A stretch of DNA of 41,085 bases, taken from the NCBI GenBank assembly GCA_035517655.1, contig DATIYJ010000010.1:1-41085 (forward strand), given 5' to 3'. The DNA comes from Nitrospiria bacterium (lineage in GTDB: Bacteria; Nitrospirota; Nitrospiria; JACQBZ01). The first letter of the stretch is position 1. Each line of letters begins with the position of its first letter. Both the position numbers and the translations under genes were made by a program. The notes under the pieces were generated by a model. It did no database searches. It was not told the DNA's origin and saw nothing but the letters and a program-made list of their open reading frames with translations. Positions 2,562-15,910 of the stretch are shown here, piece after piece.

Positions 2562-2589
2562 TTGACATTGGTCGAAAACATGCTAAATT
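2562..2589 (+). promoter_or_regulatory. Promoter of the riboswitch-controlled operon
   Basis: TTGACA (2562-2567) and TAAATT (2584-2589) are 16 bases apart, and the -10 box is preceded by TGC, an extended -10 feature. The predicted start near 2596 gives about 80 bases of leader, with two small hairpins (near 2605-2618 and 2630-2645), before the aptamer. Confidence 0.6.
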
Positions 2590-2675
2590 TGTCAATGGAG
2601 TGTGCCTCCCCGAGAGGCGTCGATTTAAGCGGCCCGATGGCCGGAAACTTTCAATTAGACGAAGTACCACGATTG

Positions 2676-2772
2676 CTCCTTTGATCAGAGCAAACCAGGG
2701 GAAACTCTGGGACGCAGAGCAACGGGGCTAAAGGAGAAACGTTCTCTCCCATGCCCGCCGAGCCGCCGAAGG
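2676..2772 (+). promoter_or_regulatory. GEMM-I cyclic-dinucleotide riboswitch aptamer, A20 (cGAMP-type)
   Basis: The conserved GEMM-I core is visible: GCAAACC (2690-2696), a hairpin capped by a GAAA tetraloop (2695-2710), GGGACGCAGAGC (2709-2720), a second helix GGGC...GCCC enclosing GGAGAA/TTCTCTCC, and the 3' strand GCCGAGCCGCCGAA (2759-2770 region). Against the Vibrio cholerae Vc2 aptamer the base before GCAAACC is G20, which contacts one ligand guanine; here it is A (2689). A20 is known to favour 3',3'-cGAMP and marks the GEMM-Ib switches of Geobacter, although A20 RNAs can also bind c-di-GMP. The 3' strand is shared with the terminator below, so ligand binding should turn the operon on. 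Confidence 0.9.
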
Positions 2773-2794
2773 AATTTCTTTGGCGGCTTTTTTT
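2761..2794 (+). terminator. Riboswitch expression platform: intrinsic terminator
   Basis: AGCCGCCGAAG pairs with CTTTGGCGGCT (the inner pairs include G-U) and is followed by seven T. The left arm is the 3' strand of the aptamer, so aptamer folding and terminator folding exclude each other. This is the layout of a ligand-ON transcriptional switch ahead of ATG 2812. Confidence 0.9.
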
Positions 2795-2811
2795 GTGCAG
2801 AGGAGGTTCCC

Positions 2812-5268
2812 ATGCAGACCAAGAACAGAAAAAATCGCATCGTCGGATGGACGATCAGCGGGCTTTTTCTTTTATCTTTCGGTTACTATCTCACGTCGTG
2901 CGTCAGCTCCTCGAACCAGACCGTGTCCGAGAACGATCTGCCCGGGGTGGCGTTCGTCAAGCGGTCGGTCGACGCGATCGGCAATCCTCTGGATCCGATC
3001 GAATTCAAGGCCGGGGGCGATCTTTATACCCTGGTCCCGGGCACCCCGTCGGGAAAGCTGCGGAATATCACGGGAGACCTGACGAACGGCGCGGGGGACG
3101 TCTCCGACCCGGAAATCTTTCCGCAGACGCAGGGCGGGCCGTTCCGGCTGGTCTTCTCGATGAACAAGGGGAGCGGCGATCACTGGCACGTTTATGAAGT
3201 CCAGATCAATGAGGACGGGAGCCGGGCGACTGCGCCGGTCCAGCTGACCTGCGGCGATTCGGACGAACTCGCCCCCGCCTATCTTCCGGACGGCCGGATC
3301 GTCTTTGCCTCGAACCGTCCCGGCTATCTCGACGAATACGAACGGAGGAAATCGACCGTTCTTCATATTCTCGACCGAACCAAGACGGTCCAAGCCGGCC
3401 AGCCCTCCTGCGATTCCGGCGAGGTCGTCCAGATCTCGTTCAACCAGAGCCACGACCGGAACCCGATCGTCCTCCGGGACGGGACGATCCTCTACAGCCG
3501 TTGGGAGCATCTCGGAACGGTGAACAAGTTCGCCATTTTCTTCATGGAGCCGGACGGGACGGATACGTTCGTCAAATACGGCTCGCATTCCGGAGTGAAC
3601 ACCTTTCTCGATCTTCGCGAGCAGCTGGACGGCAGCCTCGTCGCCACCATGATGCCGCTGAGCGGAACCTACGAGGGCGGCGCCATCGGGCATCTCGATA
3701 TCGTCAACGAGGTCGACGATCCTAATACGGCCTCCCTCCAGCTGACCGGTTCCCAGGTCATCCCGGCCGACATGACGCCATCCAATTTCGGCCGGTACCA
3801 CAACGTCTATCCCATTCCGGACGGGAGTCTCCGCTACCTGACCTCCTACTCGACCGGAAAAGTGATCAACGACCCGAAGAATAAAATCGTGCAGGAACCC
3901 GATTACGGCCTCTGGATGCTGAACAACAGCGACGGGACGCTCAAACCGATCCTCGTTCCGGGTGACAACAGCCGCCAGGCCTATCTCGAGCCGATCCCGC
4001 TCATGCCGGTCCCGGCCGCGATGATCCCGACGGCCAAGCCGGAGAAGGCGGCCAATCGGAGTTCGTTGGGGACGCAAGGGGTGCTCGCGGCCGCGAGCGT
4101 CTACGACTCGGAAGCCAACCGGGCCCTCTCGAACGAGGTCCTGGGCGTGACCATTCCGCGCGACGCCAACGGCATCATCGATTTCAACGCCCTCTGCAGC
4201 GACCCGAGCCTGCAGGTCGTCAAACAGGTCCGGATCATCCAGGCGGTTCCGAGCCAGGCCGGGGTCGGAACGGAAGACATCGGACTATCCGAGTTCGAGC
4301 GCCAGAGGATCCTCGGCTATGCGCCGGTCGAGTGCGACGGCTCCTTCCGCGTCACCGTGCCGGCCGATACGAGCCTGACCCTCAATGTGGTCGACTCCCA
4401 AAGCCGTTCGTTCAAAGTGAAGGAAAACTGGCTGGCGGTCCGGCCCGGAGAGAATCGGACCTGTAACGGCTGTCATTCGCCGCGCCGGGGAACTCCCCAG
4501 CGGCTGGCGACCGATTCCATCGCGCTCAACCGGGCTCCCTCGACCCTGGTTCCGCCCGCGATTCCGGTGATCGCCTTCAATACGAACATCCAGCCGATCT
4601 TCACGGCCAAATGCGTTTCGTGTCATTCGATCTCGGATCAAAATTCTGACGGAGTCCTCGACAGCCCGGCGGGCGGGCTTGACCTGAGCTCGGATCAGGC
4701 CGGCACCGGGTTCCCGATCTCCTACTCGAGCCTTCTCGAAGACAATATGAACGGCTCGGACCTGGTCTTTCCCGGGGAATCGCAGCAGAGTTATCTCATC
4801 GAACGGGTTTTCGGCCAGGAAATCCGGGCCGTCCGTTCCCTGCCGGCCTCGGATCCGAACAATCACGCCCAGATGCTGACGCCGGATGAAAAACAGACCC
4901 TGGTCGAATGGATCGATCTGGGGGCGCAGTTCAGCAACGAAGATGTCGTCAGCAATCCGGGCCGTAAGCGGCTCGACACGACGGTCTTTACGTCCGCCAT
5001 CCAGCCGATTCTTCTCAACCGCTGCGGCCAATGCCATGTGGCCGGCGGCGACAGCAACTTTGTATTGACCGGGGACACCGAGGAGGGCGATTTCAACGCG
5101 ACGGCGGCCCGTGTGAACGTGACCGATCCGGCTCAAAGCATCCTGCTTTTGAAAGCGACGGGAACGATCCCGATGCTCGTGAACGGAACGGCGGTCGCGC
5201 CTCCGCCGCTTTCCCCTTCGGATCCGGACTATACGACGATACTCAACTGGATCACGGCGGCGCAGTGA
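2812..5268 (+). CDS. HzsA-like triheme c-type cytochrome lipoprotein
   Basis: This 818-residue protein starts with a hydrophobic segment ending in a lipobox (LTSC, Cys30), so it should be a lipid-anchored envelope protein. Residues about 60-400 look like a TolB/beta-propeller (repeated PDG and LPDG turns such as LAPAYLPDGRIVFASNRPGY). The C-terminal part has three heme-binding motifs: CNGCH (551-555), CVSCH (601-605) and CGQCH (738-742). Length and propeller-plus-cytochrome order resemble the hydrazine synthase alpha subunit (HzsA) and its many non-anammox relatives; hydrazine chemistry should not be assumed, since no HzsB/HzsC partners are present. Start: ATG 2812 with AGGAGG at 2801-2806. 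First gene of the riboswitch operon. Confidence 0.8.
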   Translation: MQTKNRKNRIVGWTISGLFLLSFGYYLTSCVSSSNQTVSENDLPGVAFVKRSVDAIGNPLDPIEFKAGGDLYTLVPGTPSGKLRNITGDLTNGAGDVSDPEIFPQTQGGPFRLVFSMNKGSGDHWHVYEVQINEDGSRATAPVQLTCGDSDELAPAYLPDGRIVFASNRPGYLDEYERRKSTVLHILDRTKTVQAGQPSCDSGEVVQISFNQSHDRNPIVLRDGTILYSRWEHLGTVNKFAIFFMEPDGTDTFVKYGSHSGVNTFLDLREQLDGSLVATMMPLSGTYEGGAIGHLDIVNEVDDPNTASLQLTGSQVIPADMTPSNFGRYHNVYPIPDGSLRYLTSYSTGKVINDPKNKIVQEPDYGLWMLNNSDGTLKPILVPGDNSRQAYLEPIPLMPVPAAMIPTAKPEKAANRSSLGTQGVLAAASVYDSEANRALSNEVLGVTIPRDANGIIDFNALCSDPSLQVVKQVRIIQAVPSQAGVGTEDIGLSEFERQRILGYAPVECDGSFRVTVPADTSLTLNVVDSQSRSFKVKENWLAVRPGENRTCNGCHSPRRGTPQRLATDSIALNRAPSTLVPPAIPVIAFNTNIQPIFTAKCVSCHSISDQNSDGVLDSPAGGLDLSSDQAGTGFPISYSSLLEDNMNGSDLVFPGESQQSYLIERVFGQEIRAVRSLPASDPNNHAQMLTPDEKQTLVEWIDLGAQFSNEDVVSNPGRKRLDTTVFTSAIQPILLNRCGQCHVAGGDSNFVLTGDTEEGDFNATAARVNVTDPAQSILLLKATGTIPMLVNGTAVAPPPLSPSDPDYTTILNWITAAQ

Positions 5269-5729
5269 CGCGGTGGCTCTTAACACAAATCGTCACGGTC
5301 TTGATGACGGGAATTTTCTTGTGGTCGGGCGGCGGATGCGGCTCGGTCGATCCCGGCGTGGACCCGACCATCGGAAGCCTGGACTACGACGCGTTCAAGG
5401 CCAACGTCCAGCCCGTCCTGGATCGGCGGGGCTGCTCGAACTCGAGATGCCACTACCGGAACAAGGCCAATCCCAGCAACGGCGGTCCCGGCGGAAGTTT
5501 CCGAATCTATAATTGCGCCGCCGATCCCTGCTCGGAGGATCAATCCCGTGCCAACTACGATTCGTCTTCGGGCATGACCGATATTGCCAATCCGGCCGGC
5601 AGCAAGATTCTGCTCAAGCCGCTGGCGGTGTCCGCCGGCGGCATTCAGCACCTGGGAGGGGATATCTTCCCGAATACGAGTGATCCGGATTATCTCACGA
5701 TCCTGAGTTGGATCCAGAGTCCGAATTGA
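5265..5729 (+). CDS. Small secreted cytochrome-like protein with a CX4CH motif
   Basis: The start is taken as GTG 5265, which overlaps the TGA of the cytochrome gene (GTGA), giving 154 residues. A hydrophobic N-terminus ends in a weak lipobox-like SGGGC near residue 25. The mature part begins FKANVQPVLDRRGC and carries Cys57-SNSR-Cys62-His63, a CX4CH heme motif in place of CXXCH. The Y..FKANVQPVLD lead-in and the closing DPDYLTILSWI match the cytochrome-type domains in the protein before it, where CXXCH follows the same lead-in. Covalent heme is therefore likely but unproven. It probably works with the HzsA-like protein by tight translational coupling. Confidence 0.65.
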   Translation: MTRWLLTQIVTVLMTGIFLWSGGGCGSVDPGVDPTIGSLDYDAFKANVQPVLDRRGCSNSRCHYRNKANPSNGGPGGSFRIYNCAADPCSEDQSRANYDSSSGMTDIANPAGSKILLKPLAVSAGGIQHLGGDIFPNTSDPDYLTILSWIQSPN

Positions 5730-5734
5730 GAACG

Positions 5735-6493
5735 ATGGGTCGAGAAACCCGGTCTCGATTTTTATGGATCCTCCTCTGCCTGGAGTTTTTTCTGACGGCC
5801 GGAGCCGCCTCGGGAGAGGAGACGGTCCAGAAAGCGTCGGTGGTCGAACCGTTCCTCGAGATCCACACCGGACCGGGCCGGAGCTATCCGGTTTTTTACA
5901 TCGCGGAACGGGGGGAGGAGATCCTCCTTCTGAAGCGCCAGACGGACTGGTACCGGGTCCGCCTGGCCAACGGAAAGGAAGGGTGGGTCCATCGGAACGA
6001 GATCGAGAAGACCCTGCTGGCCCAGGGACGGAAAAAGGGTTGGATGGACCGGATCTACGATGACCATATCGCCGGCCGGCTGGAGATGGGATGGGAGGCG
6101 GGGACGTTCGGAGGAGACGCGTCCCTCTTCCTCCGCATGAACTATCTTCTGACCGGCGCCCTGTCCATGGAGGGAGGCGCCGGTTTTGTCTCGAGCAACC
6201 TGGGCAGCACGGACCTCTTTCAGGCCGGGATGGTGATCACACCGTGGAGAACGCCCTGGTTCTCGCTGTCGGGGACCGTCGGTGGAGGGGTCGTCTATTC
6301 GACGCCGTCGAGTCTCCTCGTGGACGTCACCCGGAAGATGTTCCATGAAGCCCACGGCGGCATCGGGATTTCCATCCCTCTCGTCCGGAACCTGTTCGCC
6401 CGGGGCGATTTTCGAAATTACACCGTGTTCATGGGCCAGGCGCGGATCCGGGAGTTCCGGGAATACAGCGCGGGCCTCTCGTTTCGGTTTTAG
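5735..6493 (+). CDS. SH3-domain outer-membrane beta-barrel protein
   Basis: The 252-residue product has a signal peptide (hydrophobic residues about 7-24, ending AGAASG). A bacterial SH3 domain follows (about residues 33-88): FLEIHTGPGRSYPVF, then DWYRVRLANGKEGWV. After a short linker, alternating strands end in FREYSAGLSFRF, with a C-terminal Phe typical of outer-membrane barrels. SH3 domains of this kind bind peptidoglycan or peptides, so the protein may fix the barrel to the cell wall. ATG 5735 is preferred to the upstream in-frame start because it directly precedes the signal peptide and follows the previous stop by five bases. Confidence 0.65.
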   Translation: MGRETRSRFLWILLCLEFFLTAGAASGEETVQKASVVEPFLEIHTGPGRSYPVFYIAERGEEILLLKRQTDWYRVRLANGKEGWVHRNEIEKTLLAQGRKKGWMDRIYDDHIAGRLEMGWEAGTFGGDASLFLRMNYLLTGALSMEGGAGFVSSNLGSTDLFQAGMVITPWRTPWFSLSGTVGGGVVYSTPSSLLVDVTRKMFHEAHGGIGISIPLVRNLFARGDFRNYTVFMGQARIREFREYSAGLSFRF

Positions 6494-6504
6494 GAAGGGT
6501 GAGG

Positions 6505-7143
6505 ATGAAACGAATTTTATTCGCGGTCGGAACGCTCGGGTTTCTGCTCGGAGGAGCCCCGGCTTTGGCCCAGTCCGAAAATTTTCCGCGAAGCGACCAA
6601 CCGGCCGTCACGCCGCCGTCGGAGGAACACCCGCTGAAAGAGGCCAAGATCGACACCGAGTCGCTGGAAATGGGCCCCTATTACGGCCTGTACGCCATGG
6701 AAGGGTTCGGGACCTCCGGCGTCCTGGGTTTCCGGCTGGCCTATCATCTGACGGAGGATGTCTTCTTTGAAGGGACGTACGGGGAAACCCGGATTGAGCA
6801 GGAGACCTTCCGGCGCCTGACGGGGCGTCTTTTGGTGGCCGACGACAAAGTCACGACCTGGAACGCCGGCGCGGCCTACAATCTTTTTCCGGGTCAGCTC
6901 TTCCTGACCCGAAAGAAGACGCTGAACTCGACGATCTATCTGATCGGAGGCCTCGGTCAAACGCGGATCGATCGGCAGGCCCACTTCACGTTCGACGCCG
7001 GCACCGGCTACAAAATCTTTATCGTGGATTGGTTCGACCTTCGGATGGAGATGCGGACCCACATCCTTCAAACGGACCTGACCGGAAAGAAACAGATCAT
7101 GGACAACATCGAAGGGACCGCGGCCTTCGCGGTCTATTTCTAA
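6505..7143 (+). CDS. Outer-membrane beta-barrel protein (OMP_myx-like)
   Basis: The 212-residue protein has a clean signal peptide (hydrophobic core ending PALAQ) and then alternating aromatic strands: YYGLYAMEGFG, LGFRLAYHLTEDVFFEGTYG, WNAGAAYNLFP, DWFDLRMEMRTHILQTD, ending AAFAVYF. The pattern resembles the outer-membrane barrel family seen beside gliding-type and adventurous-motility gene sets of myxobacteria (OMP_myx_plus). ATG 6505 is chosen over GTG 6499 because GGAAGG at 6493-6498 is correctly spaced only for the ATG. Role in the operon: probably an outer-membrane pore or platform. Confidence 0.65.
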   Translation: MKRILFAVGTLGFLLGGAPALAQSENFPRSDQPAVTPPSEEHPLKEAKIDTESLEMGPYYGLYAMEGFGTSGVLGFRLAYHLTEDVFFEGTYGETRIEQETFRRLTGRLLVADDKVTTWNAGAAYNLFPGQLFLTRKKTLNSTIYLIGGLGQTRIDRQAHFTFDAGTGYKIFIVDWFDLRMEMRTHILQTDLTGKKQIMDNIEGTAAFAVYF

Positions 7144-7153
7144 GAGGTGCGTC

Positions 7154-7654
7154 ATGAACAAAAGGGGAAAGATCGTTTCGTTTCTGTTGGCGTTGGTGTT
7201 TGTCGCCGCGGGTCCGGCCCTTGGGGCCGCGCCGGGGGACAGGGCGCCCGACTTCACGGGCAAAACCCTCGGGGGGGGAAACGTCAAGCTCAGCGAACTG
7301 AGGGGCCGCATCGTGCTGCTTAATTTTTGGGGGACGTGGTGCGCCCCTTGTAAAGAGGAACTTCCCTACTTCAACCGTCTTTACGTGAAATATAAGGGGG
7401 TCGGCCTCGAGATTCTGGCCGTGAACGTGGACAAGGTGACGGCGCAGGCCGTGGGGATGAGCGGGGCCTTGGGTCTGACGTTCCCGGTCGTCCCGGACCC
7501 CTCCGGCCATCTTTTCGATCTCTATCAAATCCGGAGCATGCCGACCACGTTCGTGGTCGGAAAGGACGGGATGATCCGCTTCGTCCACTGGGGGTTCGGG
7601 CCCGACGATCCGGCCCGGTATGATTCTCAGATCAAAAGCCTCTTGAAGGAGTGA
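7154..7654 (+). CDS. TlpA/ResA-type periplasmic thioredoxin
   Basis: Signal peptide (residues 1-24, LGAAPG), then a thioredoxin fold with GDRAPDFTGKTLGG, LRGRIVLLNFWGTWCAPC (active-site Cys63 and Cys66), and the cis-proline loop SMPTTFVV. At 166 residues it has the size of ResA/TlpA proteins, membrane-associated reductases that keep heme-binding or other cysteines reduced. Here it could reduce CXXCH motifs of the cytochromes or the CGC tail of the next gene's product; that is inferred from position. AGAGG about ten bases before ATG 7154 serves as ribosome binding site. Confidence 0.88.
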   Translation: MNKRGKIVSFLLALVFVAAGPALGAAPGDRAPDFTGKTLGGGNVKLSELRGRIVLLNFWGTWCAPCKEELPYFNRLYVKYKGVGLEILAVNVDKVTAQAVGMSGALGLTFPVVPDPSGHLFDLYQIRSMPTTFVVGKDGMIRFVHWGFGPDDPARYDSQIKSLLKE

Positions 7655-7659
7655 CGGAA

Positions 7660-7881
7660 ATGAGACGGAGGATGTTGGTTTTCGTGTGCCTAGCGGCGGT
7701 CTGGGCCGGGATGACCGGGTGCGCCCCGGTTCAGCCGTGGCAGAGGGAATACCTGGCCGACGAGACGATGCAGTTCGATCCCGACCCGTTGAAGGCCGAA
7801 TGGCAACAGCATGTGCGGGAGGTCTTCGAAGGGGGGCGGGGCGGGTTCAACGGGACCGGCGGGGGTTGCGGTTGCAGGTGA
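7660..7881 (+). CDS. DUF4266 small lipoprotein with a GGGCGC tail
   Basis: The 73-residue product has a lipobox MTGC (Cys21), then PVQPWQREYLADETMQFD, the hallmark of DUF4266, and ends GTGGGCGCR. DUF4266 lipoproteins are known beside DUF3570, a TlpA-type thioredoxin and ApbE, the order seen here; their function is not established. The closing Gly-Cys-Gly-Cys could bind metal or heme or be modified, which is speculation. ATG 7660 is preferred to GTG 7651 because AAGGAG (7646-7651) has proper spacing only for the ATG. Confidence 0.8.
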   Translation: MRRRMLVFVCLAAVWAGMTGCAPVQPWQREYLADETMQFDPDPLKAEWQQHVREVFEGGRGGFNGTGGGCGCR

Positions 7882-9041
7882 CCCGCGCGAAGGGCGGGCG
7901 GGCCTGCGGCCCCGGACGACGATTCGGGTCCGTTCTCATCCTGGCGTTGGTCTCCATCGCCGTCGGGCCGTCCTGGGCGGTCGAGCCCGCCCAGGATGAA
8001 GTCGAGACCGGATATAATTATTACAATGGAGCCGGAGTCACCGTTCAGGGACCGGCCGTGATCGTGAAGAAGAATGTATTAGACGGAGCGTCGTTAAAAG
8101 CGGGTTACAGCGTCGATATGGTCAGCTCGGCCTCCATCGATGTGGTGACCCAGGCCAGCCCCTATAGAGAGACGCGACAGGAATACAGCCTCGGAACGGA
8201 CATCCTGCGCGGCGACACCCTCATCGGGATGGATTACATCGACAGCCGGGAATCGGACTACACGTCCGATACGCTGTCGATCGGAGCGGCGCACGACCTC
8301 TTTGATAAAAATGTGACGTTCAATATGAAGGTGGCCCGCTCCTGGAATCTGGTCGGCCGGAACAACGATCCCTCGTTCGGCTGGAAGGATTTCAACCGGA
8401 CGATGTATTCGACCGGGATCACGCAATCCTTGACGCCCCGCTGGCTGATCCAGTTCAATTACGAACTCACCGCCGACGCGGGCCTCATCAACAACCCGTA
8501 TCGCAGCGCCATGACCTTGGACGGAGCGTTGGTGCCTGAAAATTACCCGGATGCCCGCACCGGACAGGCCTGGGCCATCCGGACCAGTTACGGGTTTCCC
8601 TCCGGCTCATCCGCGATCGGGCCGGGCGGCCTGGGGGGTTCCGTTCAAATGGATTACCGCTACTACCGGGATACCTTTAATGTTGTATCCAATACCGCCA
8701 AGGTCACGTTGCAACGCTACTTCGCTCCGGACTGGCTTGGGGGAATTTTCTACCAGTATTACCGTCAGGGGGCGGCCAGTTTTTACGGAGACCGCCTGCC
8801 CACCAATCAGTTATACAAGGCTCGGGACAGGGACCTCTCGGAATATCAGGATCACTGGATCGGGTTGACGCTCAAATTTAAACTCAAGCAGACGACCTGG
8901 GGCTTGATCAGCAATCCCTACGTCCAAATCGACAGCAGTTTGATGATCTATCATTATGACGACTTTACCGATCCGCGCACCGACGCGCTTTATTCCCAGA
9001 GGGCTTATGTCGGCCATACGAGTTTCGGTTTTAATTATTAG
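7878..9041 (+). CDS. DUF3570 outer-membrane protein
   Basis: GTG 7878 overlaps the stop of the DUF4266 gene (GTGA), giving 387 residues with a signal peptide ending WAVEPA. The mature N-terminus has the DUF3570 signature: YNYYNGAGVTVQGPAVIVKKN, then YSVDMVSSASIDVV and TQASPYRETRQEYS. The rest is regular beta-strands with many Tyr and Trp, ending TSFGFNY, as in a large outer-membrane barrel. DUF3570 is repeatedly found with ApbE and DUF4266. The conserved DMVSSAS (residues 80-86) resembles the Dxx[ST]GA[ST] site that ApbE flavinylates, so this barrel could be an ApbE substrate; this is a hypothesis. Confidence 0.8.
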   Translation: MTRAKGGRACGPGRRFGSVLILALVSIAVGPSWAVEPAQDEVETGYNYYNGAGVTVQGPAVIVKKNVLDGASLKAGYSVDMVSSASIDVVTQASPYRETRQEYSLGTDILRGDTLIGMDYIDSRESDYTSDTLSIGAAHDLFDKNVTFNMKVARSWNLVGRNNDPSFGWKDFNRTMYSTGITQSLTPRWLIQFNYELTADAGLINNPYRSAMTLDGALVPENYPDARTGQAWAIRTSYGFPSGSSAIGPGGLGGSVQMDYRYYRDTFNVVSNTAKVTLQRYFAPDWLGGIFYQYYRQGAASFYGDRLPTNQLYKARDRDLSEYQDHWIGLTLKFKLKQTTWGLISNPYVQIDSSLMIYHYDDFTDPRTDALYSQRAYVGHTSFGFNY

Positions 9042-10038
9042 CGTTCTCGTCCTGGATGGGTTGCTTTGTGTCCCGCCGAGCCACGGCGAAGAGGCTCCGA
9101 GCTACCTGGTCAGCGAGAATCGGGCCCTCATGGGAACCGAGGTGATCATCAAGGCGGTGGGGGACGACCGTCCCGGAATGGAGCGGGCCGTCCAGGAGGC
9201 CTTCGACGAAATTTCACGGCTGGAACGGATGATGAGCAACTTTATCCCGACCAGCGAGCTCTCGCGCATCAATCAGCAGGCCGGGAAGGCGCCGGTTCCG
9301 GTCAGCCGGGAGCTTTTTTCGGTGATCCAAAAGTCGTTGCATTTCTCCGAACTCACCGGAGGGACGTTCGACATTTCGTTCGCCTCCGTCGGCAAACTTT
9401 GGGATTTCCGCGCGGGAATCCTGCCGTCGCCGGAGGCGATCGCGCGGCAACTTCCCTTCGTCGATTATCGGAAGATCCGGCTGAACGAAAAGGACTCGAG
9501 CGTGTTCCTTCCCTATCCCGAGATGGAGATCGGCCTGGGGGGCATCGGGAAGGGCTACGCCGTCGACCGGGCCATGGCGGTCCTGACGAAGCACGGAATC
9601 CGCGACGCGGTCGTCATGGCGGGGGGGGACATGATGGTCAAGGGGAAGAAAGGGAAGGATCTCTGGCGGGTCGGGCTTCGCGATCCGGACGACAAGAATA
9701 AGATCCTGGCGGTCCTGCCGTTGGAGGATCAGGCCGTCTCGACCTCGGGGGATTACGAGCGGTTCTTCATCAAGGACGGCGTCCGCTACCATCATATTAT
9801 CGACACCCGGACGGGCTACCCGGCCAGGCTCTGCCGGAGCGTGACGCTTCTGGCCAAGGACGCGACCACCACCGACGGCCTCACCAAAGGGGTTTTCATC
9901 CTCGGTCCCGAGCGGGGGATGGCGCTCATCGAGCGGATCGGGGGGGTGGACGCGATCATCATCGACGCCCGGGGAAAGATGCACCTTTCTTCCGGGTTGA
10001 CCTCTCTGAAATTGGAAGGAGCGAAAAACGGGGGATGA
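9007..10038 (+). CDS. apbE: FAD:protein FMN transferase ApbE
   Basis: The 343-residue protein has a hydrophobic N-terminal signal and the ApbE motifs in order: LMGTEVIIK, FDISFASVGKLWDF, LGGIGKGYAVDRA, VVMAGGDMMVKG, STSGDYERFF, HHIIDTRTGYPA and TTTDGLTKGVFILG. The TDGLTK Asp and Thr and the DTRTG region bind Mg and FAD. ApbE works in the periplasm and attaches FMN from FAD covalently to Thr or Ser of target proteins. ATG 9007 overlaps the DUF3570 gene by 35 bases and has AGAGGG just upstream. Its presence means some envelope protein, perhaps in this operon, carries covalent flavin. Confidence 0.93.
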   Translation: MSAIRVSVLIISVLVLDGLLCVPPSHGEEAPSYLVSENRALMGTEVIIKAVGDDRPGMERAVQEAFDEISRLERMMSNFIPTSELSRINQQAGKAPVPVSRELFSVIQKSLHFSELTGGTFDISFASVGKLWDFRAGILPSPEAIARQLPFVDYRKIRLNEKDSSVFLPYPEMEIGLGGIGKGYAVDRAMAVLTKHGIRDAVVMAGGDMMVKGKKGKDLWRVGLRDPDDKNKILAVLPLEDQAVSTSGDYERFFIKDGVRYHHIIDTRTGYPARLCRSVTLLAKDATTTDGLTKGVFILGPERGMALIERIGGVDAIIIDARGKMHLSSGLTSLKLEGAKNGG

Positions 10039-10583
10039 GCATGCGCAGCCGAATCGTAATCCTTATTCTTTTTGTCCTTTCTCTTTTTCCATGTCGTGCT
10101 TCCCGGGCCGAACCGGCGAATGCGCCTCAACAGCAAATGGAGAACCTGGACGGCCAGATTCAAGACCTCAAGGAAAAGATCCTGAACCTGAACACGCTCC
10201 TCTTCCGGCTCCAGGAGGATCTTCTTTTTCCCGAGGACTCCTCCGTCGTGGTCTTCCTGGCGGTGGAAGGAGGGAATTACTTCGCGCTGGATTCGGTCAA
10301 GCTGAACCTGGACAACACGATGGTCACAAGTTACCTTTACACGGACCGGGAAGTCGGCGCCCTGAGAAAGGGAGGGATTCAACGGCTCTACATGGGAAAC
10401 GTGAAGTCCGGCGATCATCAACTGGTGGCCGTTTTCACGGGGAAAGGCCCGCAGGAAAAGGATTACAAACGGGCGGAAACGGTTCAATTCACCAAGAAGG
10501 ACGGCGCCGCCTTTATCAAGATCATCATACGGGACAGTTCGGAGAAAGAGCAGCCTGAGTTTGCCTATGAAACATGGAACTGA
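10035..10583 (+). CDS. Periplasmic coiled-coil protein of unknown function
   Basis: ATG 10035 overlaps the ApbE stop (ATGA). The 182-residue product has a signal peptide (residues about 6-25, ending SRAEP), a short coiled coil (ENLDGQIQDLKEKILNLN, residues about 36-60) and then a beta-rich domain (SSVVVFLAVEGGNYFALDSV, SGDHQLVAVFTGKG). I do not recognise a named family. Comparable proteins follow ApbE or precede TPR genes in other envelope clusters, as I recall; I cannot verify this. It probably assembles with the TPR proteins that follow. Confidence 0.7.
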   Translation: MSMRSRIVILILFVLSLFPCRASRAEPANAPQQQMENLDGQIQDLKEKILNLNTLLFRLQEDLLFPEDSSVVVFLAVEGGNYFALDSVKLNLDNTMVTSYLYTDREVGALRKGGIQRLYMGNVKSGDHQLVAVFTGKGPQEKDYKRAETVQFTKKDGAAFIKIIIRDSSEKEQPEFAYETWN

Positions 10584-12465
10584 AAAGGGCGGGAGGGCCA
10601 TACGCCGGACCGGCCGGCTTTTGCTGATCATCCCGTGGGCTCTTCTGCTCGGTTTTTCCGCCCCGCCGGCGCGGGCGGCCGAGCCTTCGATCGACATCGA
10701 AAAAAGGGCGGAGACCCTGCAACGGGAGGCCTATTACGATTTCTTCCTGGGAGACTACCTCACGTCGGCGACCCGTCTGAAGCTGCTTGAACAGTCGGCC
10801 GAAAAAGATGGAAAGGTATTGAACGACACCCGTCTTCTCCTGGGGGGGCTTTACATCGCCTGGGGCATGTATCGTCCGGCCGCCGCTCTGTTCGACCGAT
10901 GGGTCGAACAGTTTCCCCCGGGGAGCAGCCGGAACCAGCTCCTGCTCCTGATCGAACGGCTGCAGTATCAACGCGCGCTCTATCAGTCCGCGATCGACAC
11001 CTTTAAACGGCTATCGCCGGACTCGGCCTTCGCGTTGATGGACCAGGCCTGTTACCTGGCCGGTATGAGCGATTACCTCCAGGGCTCTGTTCCGGAAGGG
11101 ATCGGCGTTCTGGAGTCCGTTCCGCCATCCAGCGGATACTTTCCCTTCGCCCAGTTGGCCGTGGCCCAGTCCTATGTCCAACTGAAAGATTTCGAAAAGT
11201 CGATCGCGCTCCTGAAAAAACTCATCGCGACCGATCATCGTGGAGATCCCGTCCTCGGAGCCTTCGCCGAGAAAACCCGTCTGATCCTGGGGCTGCTCCT
11301 GATCGAGTTGGGAAGGTTTCAGGAGGCCCGTCCGGTCCTCGCGTCCATTCCGTCGGCGAGTCCGTTTTATCCCGACGCCCTTTTCGGGGCGGGATGGGCC
11401 GATTTCGATGCGGGACGTTATTCGGAGGCCCTTCCTTATTTTCAGGAATTGTCGGAAGCATATCCGGATCATGTCTACGCTTTGGAAGGACTGAATACGA
11501 TCGGGGGGAGTTATCGGAAGCTGGGCGCGTTTGCGAAGGCCCTTCAAAGTTATGGAAAGGCCCTTGATGTTTATGAGCGGAAAGGGAAGGAGATCCATGA
11601 GATTAGGACGTTGATCCAGGACCGGGAACGGCTGGCCGATTGGCTCGGCCGACCGGAGGACCCTCAAGAAGACCGCTTGATCCCTTTTCTCGACGAAGAC
11701 CTGCTTCGCTTCCGGATCGACCGGTACCGGGAGCTTTCTTCTCTCGCGGCCTATCTCGACCGGAAGGCGGCGGATATGGGCGTTTTTGAGATCATGGTCG
11801 ATCACCGGGAAGAGGTCTTCCGGGGGCACCTCCCGACTCTCCGCGGTTTTCTGGACAACGATCCGGTCAAGGCGCTCCAGGAACAAGAACGGCTCCTTCA
11901 GGCCCGTCTTCAAGAGGCGACGCGAACGGAACGGGTGGAGGCCCTCGCAACGACCAAAGAGAGGGAGAAACTCGATCAATTGGCCCGGGCGCAATCGCAA
12001 GGGCGGGAGCTGCTGGAAGCGGTCGGGCGGATGGGGGCCGCTTCGCCGGATCTCCAGGAGCTGAAGGGACAGATCGAAGCGGCCAACCGTCGACTGGCCC
12101 TGTTTCGAGGCGAACTCCTCTGGAGGGTGGTCACCGAGGCCCCCGGTCGGATCGATGATCTTCAAAGAAGCGAGGCACAACTCCGGGAAGGTTTGGATGC
12201 GCTGTCCGGGCGGCGGGCGCGATTGACGGCTTCGGCCCCGACCCTGGAAAACGATCTCGAACGGTTTCGCGAAAGAATACGCACGGCCCGTCAATCCCTG
12301 CTGGAAGAAAAAGAAACGGCGCTCGATCTTCAAAGAAAACTCCTTCCCCCTTTGCAGGTTCTGCTATTGCAGGCCCTTGATAAACAACAGGGGCGGATCG
12401 AGCATCTGGCCGCCGTGGCGAAACTGAGCCGGATCCAGATCCTGGATCTAAAGAGTCGCCCATGA
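10567..12465 (+). CDS. Secreted TPR and coiled-coil envelope protein (632 aa)
   Basis: ATG 10567 lies inside the end of the previous gene (17-base overlap) and begins a signal peptide (RLLLIIPWALLLGFSAPPARAAE). Residues about 40-370 form TPR-like helix pairs (for example PYFQELSEAYPDHVYALEG and GAFAKALQSYGKALDVY). Residues about 430-620 are a long charged coiled coil (QEQERLLQARLQEATRTER and later). Such TPR plus coiled-coil proteins act as periplasmic scaffolds in gliding-type (Glt) and Tol-like machines, but the family here is not one I can name. A scaffold role is inferred from architecture. Confidence 0.75.
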   Translation: MKHGTEKGGRAIRRTGRLLLIIPWALLLGFSAPPARAAEPSIDIEKRAETLQREAYYDFFLGDYLTSATRLKLLEQSAEKDGKVLNDTRLLLGGLYIAWGMYRPAAALFDRWVEQFPPGSSRNQLLLLIERLQYQRALYQSAIDTFKRLSPDSAFALMDQACYLAGMSDYLQGSVPEGIGVLESVPPSSGYFPFAQLAVAQSYVQLKDFEKSIALLKKLIATDHRGDPVLGAFAEKTRLILGLLLIELGRFQEARPVLASIPSASPFYPDALFGAGWADFDAGRYSEALPYFQELSEAYPDHVYALEGLNTIGGSYRKLGAFAKALQSYGKALDVYERKGKEIHEIRTLIQDRERLADWLGRPEDPQEDRLIPFLDEDLLRFRIDRYRELSSLAAYLDRKAADMGVFEIMVDHREEVFRGHLPTLRGFLDNDPVKALQEQERLLQARLQEATRTERVEALATTKEREKLDQLARAQSQGRELLEAVGRMGAASPDLQELKGQIEAANRRLALFRGELLWRVVTEAPGRIDDLQRSEAQLREGLDALSGRRARLTASAPTLENDLERFRERIRTARQSLLEEKETALDLQRKLLPPLQVLLLQALDKQQGRIEHLAAVAKLSRIQILDLKSRP

Positions 12466-15269
12466 AACCGATCGCGATCGGGCTTTGCCTTTTATTGCTC
12501 GGCGGCTGCAGCCTGGGCCGGGATTCCCGACGCCCCGAAGCGCCCCCGTCGTTGACGACGAAGGAGATCGAAGCGCTTCGCCAAGAGCCGCTGGTCGCTC
12601 GGAAGGAAGCCGTGGTGAAGGCGTACGAGGATTTTCTAAAGCAGTATGATCGGGTCGACCCCTCTTTAACCTCACAAGCCCTGAAGCGCCTGGGGGATCT
12701 CTATCTCGAAACTTCGAATCAGCGCTTCCAAAAGGCGATGGAAGCCTATGAAGCGCATCCGGAGGGGCCGCCTCCGCTGGTGGATGATCGAAAGGCGATC
12801 GCGACCTACGAAGAGCTTCTTCGTTCCGATCCGGGATATCCGGAAAACGACGAGGTCCTCTACGCCCTTTCGCGCGCCTATGCCGAGACCGGAAACCGGG
12901 AGATGGCCGTCGGATCGCTCGAACGTCTTCTGAAGGACTATCCGCGGAACCGGCATCGACAGGAGGCCTCGTTTCGCTTGGGCGAGTATTATTTTGATCA
13001 ACGTTTATACGAAAAAGCCGCGGAAGCCTATGAGCAGTCCCTGGCCTTGAAAGACCCCTTTTTCCTCGACAAGGCGCGGTACAAGCTCGGTTGGACGTAC
13101 TTCAACATGAAACAATACCCGCGAGCGATTGATCATTTTCTCCGGTTGGTCAATCAGAAGGTGACGGCGGAAGGGGACATCCCCTTCGAGCAAGGCTCCT
13201 TGGTCTGGGAAGCGATGACCTATGTGGCGACCTCGTTTCGGATTCTCGGGGGAGCGGCTCCTCTCTCGGCGTACTTCCAAAAAAACGGATCTCTTCCCTA
13301 TGAGAAAGATCTCTACCTGATGGTCGGAAACCAATCTCTGTCGGACGGAGATCCTCAGTCGGCGGTCGACACGTACCGGACGTTCATCCGTCAACATCCG
13401 CTGCATCCGATGGCGCCGATTTTTTTATCGTATATCATCGAGGTCTATGAGAAGGAAAAGGACCCGCCGTCGGCCGAAAAGGCCAGGGTCCAGTTGGTCG
13501 AAACGTATTCCTCGCAGAGCCCATGGTACCGGGCCAACGATGAAGCGGCCCGCTCCCGTTCCCGGCCGATCGTGCAGTCGGAGCTCTATCGCCTCGCCCT
13601 CTCGGCCCATGCCCGTGCGCAGGCCGGGAAAAACCAGGAAGATTACCGTGAGGCGGCGGGATGGTACCGGCAATTTCTCGCCGAGTTTCCCCACCAGAAG
13701 GAATCGCGGGATGTCCACCTCTTTCTGGCCGAGACCCTTTTCGCGTTGGGCGAGTTCGCCCAAGCCGGAGAGGAATATGAGACGGCCGCCTACGGCTATC
13801 CGGAGAAAGGCGCGAATTCGAAGGCCGCCTATGACGCGGTCGTGGCCTATCAGAAGGTCGATACAGAAAAGGGCAGCGACAAAGTGATCGATCTTTCCAA
13901 GCGCTTTGCCGCGATTTTTCCTCAGGACCCCAAGACCCCGGCGCTTTTGCTCAAAGCCGGAGAGATTCTCTTTGAGGCGAAGCGCTATGACGAAACCCTC
14001 GGCGTCCTTAAAGACTTTCCGGGCCGTTATCCCAAGGAGGAAGGGGCGACGACGGCGCAAAAACTCGTTGCGCACAGCCTGATGCAGCTGGGACGTTTTG
14101 AAGAGGCCCGTCAGGCCTACCGTCAGACGCTGGCCCTGCTTCCCCCGTCGGATACGAAGGGGCGCCAGGAGATCGCCGATCTGTTGGCCGCGGCCGTTTA
14201 TAAACAGGCTGAAAGTCGCCAGCGGGAAAACCGGCCGGAGGAAGCGGTCCGTCTCTATGAGGATGTGGCCGAGGAGGCTCCTCGGAGCGAACTGGCCCCC
14301 CAGGCCCTTTTTGAAGCCGGCCAGATCCGTGAGGGAATGAAGCAAATCAAAAACGCGATCGCAATGTATCAGAGGCTGATTCTCCTCTCTCCCGATTCCA
14401 CGCTTTCGGGAAAAGCGCAGGTGCAGATCGGTTTGCTGTATGAACAAGAGGGGGAATGGGTCCCATCCGCGGATGCCTACGTCTCCGCCGCCGGAAATAT
14501 CCGGGATGAGAGCCTTGTTTCCCATCTCCTTTTTACGGCCGGTCTCTATTACGAAAAGAGCGGCCGATGGGAAGAGTGTTATAACGCCTTCTCAAGGTTC
14601 ACCGGGCGGTTTCCACAAAACCCGGACGCGGCGGAAGCGCTTTTCAAAATGGCCAACGCCCGACAAAAACAACAAAAGACCCGGGAAGCGCTGCAACTTT
14701 TTGAGAAAGTGGAGCAGCAATTCCCCGCAACGCCGTTTGCCGCGGAGGCTCTGTTTCAGATCGGCGAGGAGGCTTACCAGAATTTTAAAGCCGTACGGTT
14801 GCGGGAACCTTTGAACAAAAACCTGAAAAAAAAGGCCAAGGCCATGGAAAGGGCGGTCGCCCTCTATACCAAGGCGATCCAGACCCGGTATTCCGATGTG
14901 GTCACGGCTTCTTCTTACCGACTGGGGGAGATTTTTGAAAATTTCAAGTCGTCTCTTCTCGATGCGGAACCCCCTCGAAACCTGACCAAGGACGAGCAGG
15001 AGGAGTACCGCTTCCAACTGGAGGAGAAGGCTTTTCCTTTTGAGGAGAAGGCGGTGGAAGCCTATTTCAGCAACGTGCGCCGGATCCGGGACGAGAACAG
15101 TCCTTACAACGAATGGATCAAAAAAAGTTTCAACCGCCTGGCCGAGCTGAGGCCCGCGCTGTACCGCCGGCCGGAAAGGACGGAACGGATTGTCTCCGTC
15201 GTCGATCAACGTCAGTTATCGACTCAAACCCCTGAAGACTCCCGCGGGAGAATGGTGCAGGCCCGATGA
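12462..15269 (+). CDS. Large TPR lipoprotein (935 aa)
   Basis: ATG 12462 overlaps the previous stop (ATGA). A lipobox LGGCS (Cys16) marks it as a lipoprotein. Nearly the whole chain is TPR-type helical repeat, with many copies of the A.Y......P....A...LGE pattern (for example HRQEASFRLGEYYFDQ, YEKAAEAYEQSLAL and PYNEWIKKSFNRLAELRP near the end). It resembles the large TPR lipoproteins of myxobacterial gliding loci (GltE-like) and BamD/CpoB-like scaffolds, though length and context fit the former better. It likely lines the inner leaflet of the outer membrane and organises the complex. No enzyme motif is visible. Confidence 0.8.
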   Translation: MKPIAIGLCLLLLGGCSLGRDSRRPEAPPSLTTKEIEALRQEPLVARKEAVVKAYEDFLKQYDRVDPSLTSQALKRLGDLYLETSNQRFQKAMEAYEAHPEGPPPLVDDRKAIATYEELLRSDPGYPENDEVLYALSRAYAETGNREMAVGSLERLLKDYPRNRHRQEASFRLGEYYFDQRLYEKAAEAYEQSLALKDPFFLDKARYKLGWTYFNMKQYPRAIDHFLRLVNQKVTAEGDIPFEQGSLVWEAMTYVATSFRILGGAAPLSAYFQKNGSLPYEKDLYLMVGNQSLSDGDPQSAVDTYRTFIRQHPLHPMAPIFLSYIIEVYEKEKDPPSAEKARVQLVETYSSQSPWYRANDEAARSRSRPIVQSELYRLALSAHARAQAGKNQEDYREAAGWYRQFLAEFPHQKESRDVHLFLAETLFALGEFAQAGEEYETAAYGYPEKGANSKAAYDAVVAYQKVDTEKGSDKVIDLSKRFAAIFPQDPKTPALLLKAGEILFEAKRYDETLGVLKDFPGRYPKEEGATTAQKLVAHSLMQLGRFEEARQAYRQTLALLPPSDTKGRQEIADLLAAAVYKQAESRQRENRPEEAVRLYEDVAEEAPRSELAPQALFEAGQIREGMKQIKNAIAMYQRLILLSPDSTLSGKAQVQIGLLYEQEGEWVPSADAYVSAAGNIRDESLVSHLLFTAGLYYEKSGRWEECYNAFSRFTGRFPQNPDAAEALFKMANARQKQQKTREALQLFEKVEQQFPATPFAAEALFQIGEEAYQNFKAVRLREPLNKNLKKKAKAMERAVALYTKAIQTRYSDVVTASSYRLGEIFENFKSSLLDAEPPRNLTKDEQEEYRFQLEEKAFPFEEKAVEAYFSNVRRIRDENSPYNEWIKKSFNRLAELRPALYRRPERTERIVSVVDQRQLSTQTPEDSRGRMVQAR

Positions 15270-15910
15270 TGCGACGCTTCGGTCCGATCAAAGGATTTCT
15301 TTTTCTCGTCCTTTTGATGTCATCCGTCGGATGCATGCGGACTTCCGCGATCGTCGCTCGTCCGGAAGCTCCTGCACCGGCGGCTCCGGAAGCTCGGAAT
15401 GATTTGTCCCGTCGCACCGAACCGGGCGGGCCCCTTCTCCAGTTCAAGCAAGGGGTGCAGCTTCTCGAGAACGGACAGAACGACGAAGCGCGGCATTTGT
15501 TTGAAAAACTCCGGGATACCTATCCAAAGATGAGTGTTATTTATAAAGATCTGGGTGTGACCTATAAACGTCTCGGACTCATTCCGGAGGCCGTGGCCTC
15601 CTATCAACGGGCCCTCGAAATTGAAAGAGGCGACGCGGAGGTTTATTACAATCTGGCCATCGCCCTGCGCGAGCAGGGGGAGTTCCGCAAAGCGGAGGAG
15701 GCCTACAAAACCGCTCTTGCGATCTCTCCGGATTTTATGGATGCTCATTACAACCTGGCCGTTCTTTATGACCTCTATCTCAACGAGCCGAACGAGGCCA
15801 TCCGCCACTACCAACGGTTTCTGGAATTGGGAGGCGGGGATCCCAAAGAAATTCAGATTTGGATCGCGGCTCTTCAGAAAAGAACCGACGAATCGAAGAG
15901 GTCGCCATGA
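15266..15910 (+). CDS. TPR lipoprotein (214 aa)
   Basis: ATG 15266 overlaps the previous stop (ATGA). The lipobox is SSVGC (Cys23). Residues about 65-200 contain four TPR units, clearest in VYKRLGLIPEAVASYQRALE, VYYNLAIALREQGEFRKAEE and AHYNLAVLYDLYLNEPNEAI. It is PilF/Pgb1-like in size and fold, so a pilotin-type role is an alternative to a structural one. Overlaps on both sides place it firmly in the riboswitch operon. Confidence 0.8.
   Translation: MMRRFGPIKGFLFLVLLMSSVGCMRTSAIVARPEAPAPAAPEARNDLSRRTEPGGPLLQFKQGVQLLENGQNDEARHLFEKLRDTYPKMSVIYKDLGVTYKRLGLIPEAVASYQRALEIERGDAEVYYNLAIALREQGEFRKAEEAYKTALAISPDFMDAHYNLAVLYDLYLNEPNEAIRHYQRFLELGGGDPKEIQIWIAALQKRTDESKRSP

Follow-up and report, generated by a model that had tools for sequence, protein, structure and literature searches.

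A candidate cGAMP-sensing GEMM-Ib riboswitch ahead of an HzsA-like lipoprotein operon in Nitrospirota

The window analysed here is a stretch of 41,085 nucleotides from a Nitrospiria bacterium, and the features described below all lie on its forward strand. A sigma-70-like promoter occupies positions 2562-2589, where TTGACA is separated by 16 nt from TAAATT and a TG precedes the second hexamer; it has 10 of 12 consensus matches, and one such promoter was found compared with 0.2 in shuffles. It is followed by a GEMM-I aptamer of the A20 type (2679-2770), an intrinsic terminator (2760-2794) and an operon whose first gene (2812-5268) encodes an 818-aa HzsA-like lipoprotein with three CXXCH motifs (PF18582, 1.2e-18). 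Hydrazine synthase alpha was considered for this gene and rejected, since the NCBIfam equivalog NF052339 scored 98 bits, far under its cut-off of 800, and the product is only an HzsA-like domain protein. The next genes encode a small lipoprotein with an atypical, haem-like CX4CH motif and no Pfam match (5256-5729, start approximate), an SH3-domain protein (5708-6493), an outer-membrane beta-barrel protein (6499-7143; TIGR04565, 119 bits, above the cut-off of 60) and a TlpA/ResA-like thioredoxin (7154-7654). A DUF4266 small lipoprotein (7660-7881, coordinates approximate; PF14086, 2.2e-16), a DUF3570 protein (7686-9041, with the true start after the ORF start; PF12094, 2.9e-26) and an ApbE FMN transferase (8956-10038; PF02424, 7.8e-86) come after these, and coiled/TPR proteins (10035-15910) form the probable operon tail, judging from the overlap of start and stop positions among the listed ORFs. 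The initial annotation had called this a cytochrome operon, which is apt for the multihaem HzsA-like lipoprotein and the small haem-like protein but not for most of the genes. We infer that the operon serves redox processes of the outer envelope.

When the window was searched with Rfam, RF01051 was the only family matched; it scored 65 bits, above the gathering score of 35 (E = 1.2e-10), and aligned over its full length (model positions 1-87). The GEMM-I core that the initial annotation had described, namely GCAAACC, a GAAA-capped hairpin, GGGACGCAGAGC and the 3' strand, is present, and the covariance-model score bears the assignment out. Pocket positions are given here in Vc2 numbering, which we take to be that of the Vc2 structure. 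In the Rfam alignment, model position 11 is the equivalent of Vc2 position 20, and the base there is A at 2689, as had been claimed; this ligand-reading base, which would place the RNA in GEMM-Ib, is equivalent to G20 of Vc2 and A14 of Gs1761. The Gs1761 cGAMP riboswitch has a 6-base J1/2, a 26-base P2, a J2/3 of one A and a J1/3 of GC followed by P1 (PMC6274999), and the window aptamer shares this topology with the same segment lengths. Mapped onto that structure and numbered from 2679, the three-way junction of the window RNA holds both ligand-contact residues: A38 at 2716 (Vc2 A47, Gs1761 A41), expected to stack between the two ligand bases, and C88 at 2766 (Vc2 C92, Gs1761 C75), expected to pair with a ligand guanine and also part of the terminator left arm. 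In the fold of the RNA cut ahead of the terminator right arm, P1 is formed by CUUUG (2679-2683) and CGAAG (2767-2771), with G5-C89 as its top pair, and 96% of its cells are paired across 26 aligned relatives. The base at 2717 (RNA 39, Vc2-48) is G instead of A, which in the mapped model is a pocket change relative to Gs1761 A42. The window almost certainly carries, as sequence, a real and complete A20 GEMM-I switch.

The terminator takes the 3' strand of the aptamer as its left arm, pairs it with a right arm CUUUGGCGGC in a stem-loop of 13 pairs (2760-2789), and ends in a T run; such a structure is rarer in shuffles. In computed folds, the full-length RNA adopts the terminator (-48.1 kcal/mol, z -3.3), which at equilibrium is favoured by 19 kcal/mol over the terminator-free fold. 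The 3' strand GCCGCCGAAG, including the equivalents of C92 and C93, is used in both the aptamer and the terminator, so that the two computed folds are mutually exclusive, and the claim of a complete ON-switch platform with a near-consensus promoter and this terminator is upheld in its layout. Because the folds exclude each other, the bound ligand is expected to switch the operon on, and we hold this ON logic with high confidence. In Geobacter, the pilM cGAMP switch likewise has an aptamer and a terminator that exclude each other, with the ligand turning transcription on (PMC9262584), and pgcA has the same layout as an ON switch.

We found 36 distinct relatives of the window RNA type, and in 30 of them the terminator could be delimited. 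In all 30 it is built from the aptamer 3' strand and gains 12-23 kcal/mol over the best terminator-free fold. Strong covariation is seen in the aptamer helices of the 26 aligned relatives, with two-sided changes at 12 pairs compared with 7.2 in shuffles; 0 of 500 shuffles reached the observed value, and slid versions were far lower. For the terminator, 93% of cells are paired and mostly conserved, with two two-sided changes, and P1 is mostly conserved with one-sided changes only, so both rest on conservation and pairing rather than covariation. An upstream element ACGAAGTAC, common to two loci, was discarded for its lack of conservation across the 36 members. Among named records, the RNA type of the window occurs in Ca. 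Manganitrophus GAC4, other Manganitrophaceae and groundwater Nitrospirae, and tandem A20 switches are common among the relatives. The tandem switches at L037, L055, L152, L159 and L163 mostly have their own terminator each, and no clear terminator was seen for the gene-proximal switch of some pairs (L054:2403; L055, reverse strand, 6227).

The genome of the window contains four GEMM-I RNAs, three of them near-identical members of this type, the CTTTG type, with A20, and one with G20. Typed with the neutral Rfam model, which is not biased toward A20, CTTTG-type aptamers carry A20 in 31 of 31 cases (13 in family f1 and 18 in f12, a family of the same class, Nitrospiria, as that of the window), while the other GEMM-I types in these genomes are mixed at position 20. 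A covariance model of the CTTTG type gave strong matches in several other Nitrospirota classes, and the matches inspected there have A20 in 27 of 27 cases, under a model that itself leans to A. The sole G20 RNA of the window's genome (L004, G000:C12:56173-56272) has a different terminator layout and presumably senses c-di-GMP. Three near-identical CCAAG-type aptamers, L034, L039 and L035 (G003:C62, G003:C18 and G001:C37), have G, A and C at position 20, respectively, of which the C was unexpected. A second A20 type, CNCCGATAAGAGC (L043, L044, L052, L084, L177, L192-L194 and L197), has a 5' strand complementary to a downstream CTCTTATCGG, suggesting a different, possibly translational expression platform, and the A20 aptamers L047 and L049 (G002:C23 and G002:C21) contain very long P3 insertions.

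A Hypr-type GGDEF synthase had been suggested as a companion of the switch, and the genome was examined for one. Hypr proteins are marked by Ser348, by the GGDEF Asp374 and by a residue other than Arg at 304 in GmGacA numbering (PMC6456294). Among about 29 GGDEF hits, the full signature occurs in one, a GAF-GGDEF protein of about 365 aa (L020/L114, G000:C22:8967-10067) with the motifs LTKLFNFRYL, NDTHGHLMGSKVL and RYGGDEF, in which the specificity residue is Ser, the GGDEF motif is present, and the cross-dimer residue is Phe rather than Arg. By these residues it belongs to the GacA-type Hypr GGDEFs and is a candidate cGAMP synthase in the same genome as the switch. Its best PDB relative is 6d9m, with 170 bits compared with 127 for the next, annotated as an endolysin fusion with a GAF-containing diguanylate cyclase. 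This entry we take to be the G. metallireducens GacA Hypr structure of PMC6456294. In the GGDEF tree, GacA groups with the clade of G000:C22 at a support of 99/93, where rows L139, L145, L015 and L019 were disregarded as probably of wrong frame or region. An orthologue with Ser, GGDEF and non-Arg is found in 7 of 7 genomes of the family at 84-93% identity, the next GGDEF per genome reaching only about 38%. At E <= 1e-85, 37 of 270 class genomes have an orthologue, in families f1-f7, f11 and f12, and none was detected in f8, f9 or f10; a phylum sample yielded 117 of 396 genomes at E <= 1e-80. All orthologue loci with a readable motif have Ser and GGDEF. An FHA-GGDEF protein (L029, G000:C44:31163-31630) combines a Ser specificity residue with GGDEF, lies outside the GacA clade of the tree, and may be a second Ser-type cyclase. 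About 25 further GGDEF domains in the genome are mostly canonical, so c-di-GMP must be present.

Considering the typed GEMM-I aptamers of the class, A20 occurs in 42 of 74 from Hypr-positive families and in 4 of 40 from Hypr-negative families, uncorrected for kinship; the Fisher test (p = 8e-7) assumes independence among related aptamers and is descriptive only. Across the phylum, Hypr orthologues occur in most families with A20-type switches. A strict rule by which A20 would appear only where a GacA-type Hypr occurs was given up, as it failed on f20 and on part of f10, and the relation is an association rather than a defining trait of a single RNA. In f10, 4 of 35 aptamers are A20, with no Hypr detected in that family. 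In f20, A20 switches of the CTTTG type score 65-95 bits, no GacA-type orthologue was found in the family, and the GGDEFs nearest to GacA there are canonical, with Asp. A pattern search, one codon short and with its GacA-type controls unmatched, showed that 11 of 12 f20 genomes encode a GAF-GGDEF whose specificity residue is Ser and in which NYR replaces NRR, but whose motif is GGEEF (L288-L298, e.g. L297). The Ser/GGEEF combination in GacA was reported as inactive under the Goldilocks model (PMC6456294), and if that model holds in f20, the Ser/Tyr GAF-GGEEF would be inactive. Since A20 occurs in f20 and f10 without a GacA-type Hypr, A20 is not proof of cGAMP.

These exceptions bear on the reading that the aptamer is promiscuous and that A20 reflects relaxed specificity, the RNA responding in the cell to both cGAMP and c-di-GMP, or even more to the latter. 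The many canonical GGDEFs of the genome, the G at the Vc2-48 pocket position, the A20 aptamers in some lineages without detected Hypr and the lack of a GacA-type orthologue in f20 are all consistent with it, as is a natural Geobacter switch, omcST, which responds to both ligands. However, A20 is invariant in the 31 typed CTTTG members, whose genomes also contain G20 switches, and the Hypr orthologue is strongly conserved in all seven family genomes, far above the next GGDEF; we therefore consider promiscuity unlikely, though worth keeping in mind. A plain c-di-GMP switch, in which A at position 20 is tolerated drift, would agree with the Rfam name of RF01051, c-di-GMP-I, and with the sporadic A20 aptamers of Hypr-less lineages, yet drift would hardly leave A20 uniform in the CTTTG type across several classes (27 of 27 inspected, with the model leaning to A) or let it go with a Ser-type GAF-GGDEF, and this reading appears highly improbable. 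An OFF switch or a non-switching relic, whose terminator forms whatever the ligand, could point to the large equilibrium advantage of the terminator fold, but it is the least probable of the alternatives given that the aptamer is complete and covarying, that the folds exclude each other in every member whose terminator could be delimited, that pilM and pgcA are ON switches of the same layout, and that folding is co-transcriptional, so that the aptamer comes first.

The reading that we prefer is that the window RNA is probably a cGAMP-sensing GEMM-Ib transcriptional ON switch, with cGAMP as its likely physiological ligand. At the level of sequence, the aptamer, A20, the exclusive folds, the relatives and the Hypr signature are established. 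In the proposed mechanism, RNA polymerase would start near 2595, and the aptamer would be the first element to be transcribed. Any 3',3'-cGAMP in the cell, for which the genome's single GacA-type GAF-GGDEF is the most likely source, would then bind the equivalents of A20, A47 and C92 (2689, 2716 and 2766) and lock CUUUG in P1 with CGAAG. With the 3' strand held in P1, the GCCGCCGAAG/CUUUGGCGGC terminator could not form, and the operon from 2812 would be transcribed; when the ligand is absent, the 13-bp terminator would win and transcription would end at about 2790.

An A20 switch and an HzsA-like gene occur together in the window's genome (G000), in G002 and in G252, a genome of another family. 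Further A20 targets in the window's genome are a di-haem peroxidase-like protein and fn3 proteins, and in Manganitrophaceae many are secreted fn3 proteins, while an A20 switch in f21 lies upstream of pilM. In G001-G003, A20-led clusters encode a 12-16-haem cytochrome, a barrel lipoprotein, a membrane protein and a 24-haem cytochrome. The first two genes are also A20-led in one Manganitrophaceae genome, the membrane protein and the 24-haem cytochrome belong to f1 genomes, and the 24-haem gene is absent from the genome of the window. The clusters at L099 (G002:C61), L105 (G003:C94), L103 (G001:C61) and L160 (Manganitrophaceae) resemble an outer-membrane electron conduit.

Most of what is known of the Hypr/cGAMP circuit comes from Geobacter, in which metal-particle respiration is under its control. 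On the best reading, the window switch and the Hypr candidate extend this electron-transfer circuit to Nitrospirota. That the enzyme signature, the switch and part of the targets (multihaem conduits and pilM) recur in another phylum, among relatives of the lithoautotrophic manganese oxidisers, Ca. Manganitrophus, suggests that cGAMP is an old and general signal in handling extracellular electrons. We see it as evenly balanced whether Nitrospirota, including Ca. Manganitrophaceae, have a phylum-wide cGAMP regulon, in which a Hypr GAF-GGDEF retained by vertical descent, together with a uniform family of A20 ON riboswitches, would control electron conduits, haem lipoproteins, type IV pili and secreted fn3 proteins, and in which the Ser/Tyr GAF-GGEEF of f20 would have taken over cGAMP synthesis against the Goldilocks rule. 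The interest of the locus lies in this phylum-wide circuit and in the f20 exception. In the papers covered here that discuss Hypr, Nitrospirota are not mentioned, and Hypr/cGAMP signalling in this phylum does not seem to have been described previously, though an earlier mention, as in the founding PNAS papers of 2015, is possible.

Taken all together, the closest known systems are the Geobacter GEMM-Ib switches (Gs1761/pgcA, pilM and omcAHG; PMC6456294, PMC9262584 and PMC6274999), with which the window RNA shares A20, the junction lengths, the A47 and C92 equivalents, a terminator competing for the P1/3' strand in an ON-switch layout, and a Hypr GGDEF in the genome. The Nitrospirota A20 relatives also resemble them in their multihaem cytochrome/barrel and pilM targets and in their tandem copies, such as those that precede omcAHG in Geobacter. 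In contrast, the window RNA comes from Nitrospirota and has its own consensus, with CUUUGYUCAGAGC, G at the Vc2-48 equivalent, CGGGGCUA and GCCGCCAAAG/CUUUGGCGGC, and many of the Nitrospirota targets, as read from their genes, are secreted fn3 proteins, in addition to the HzsA-like lipoprotein operon. The window aptamer has the whole fold and core of Vc2 (RF01051, 65 bits), and differs from it in having A where Vc2 has G at position 20. As for the enzyme, G000:C22 is like GacA (6d9m) in its Ser at the specificity position, its GGDEF Asp, an aromatic residue for Arg and a GAF domain adjoining GGDEF, whereas it is a single GAF-GGDEF of about 365 aa, and the likeness is one of sequence.
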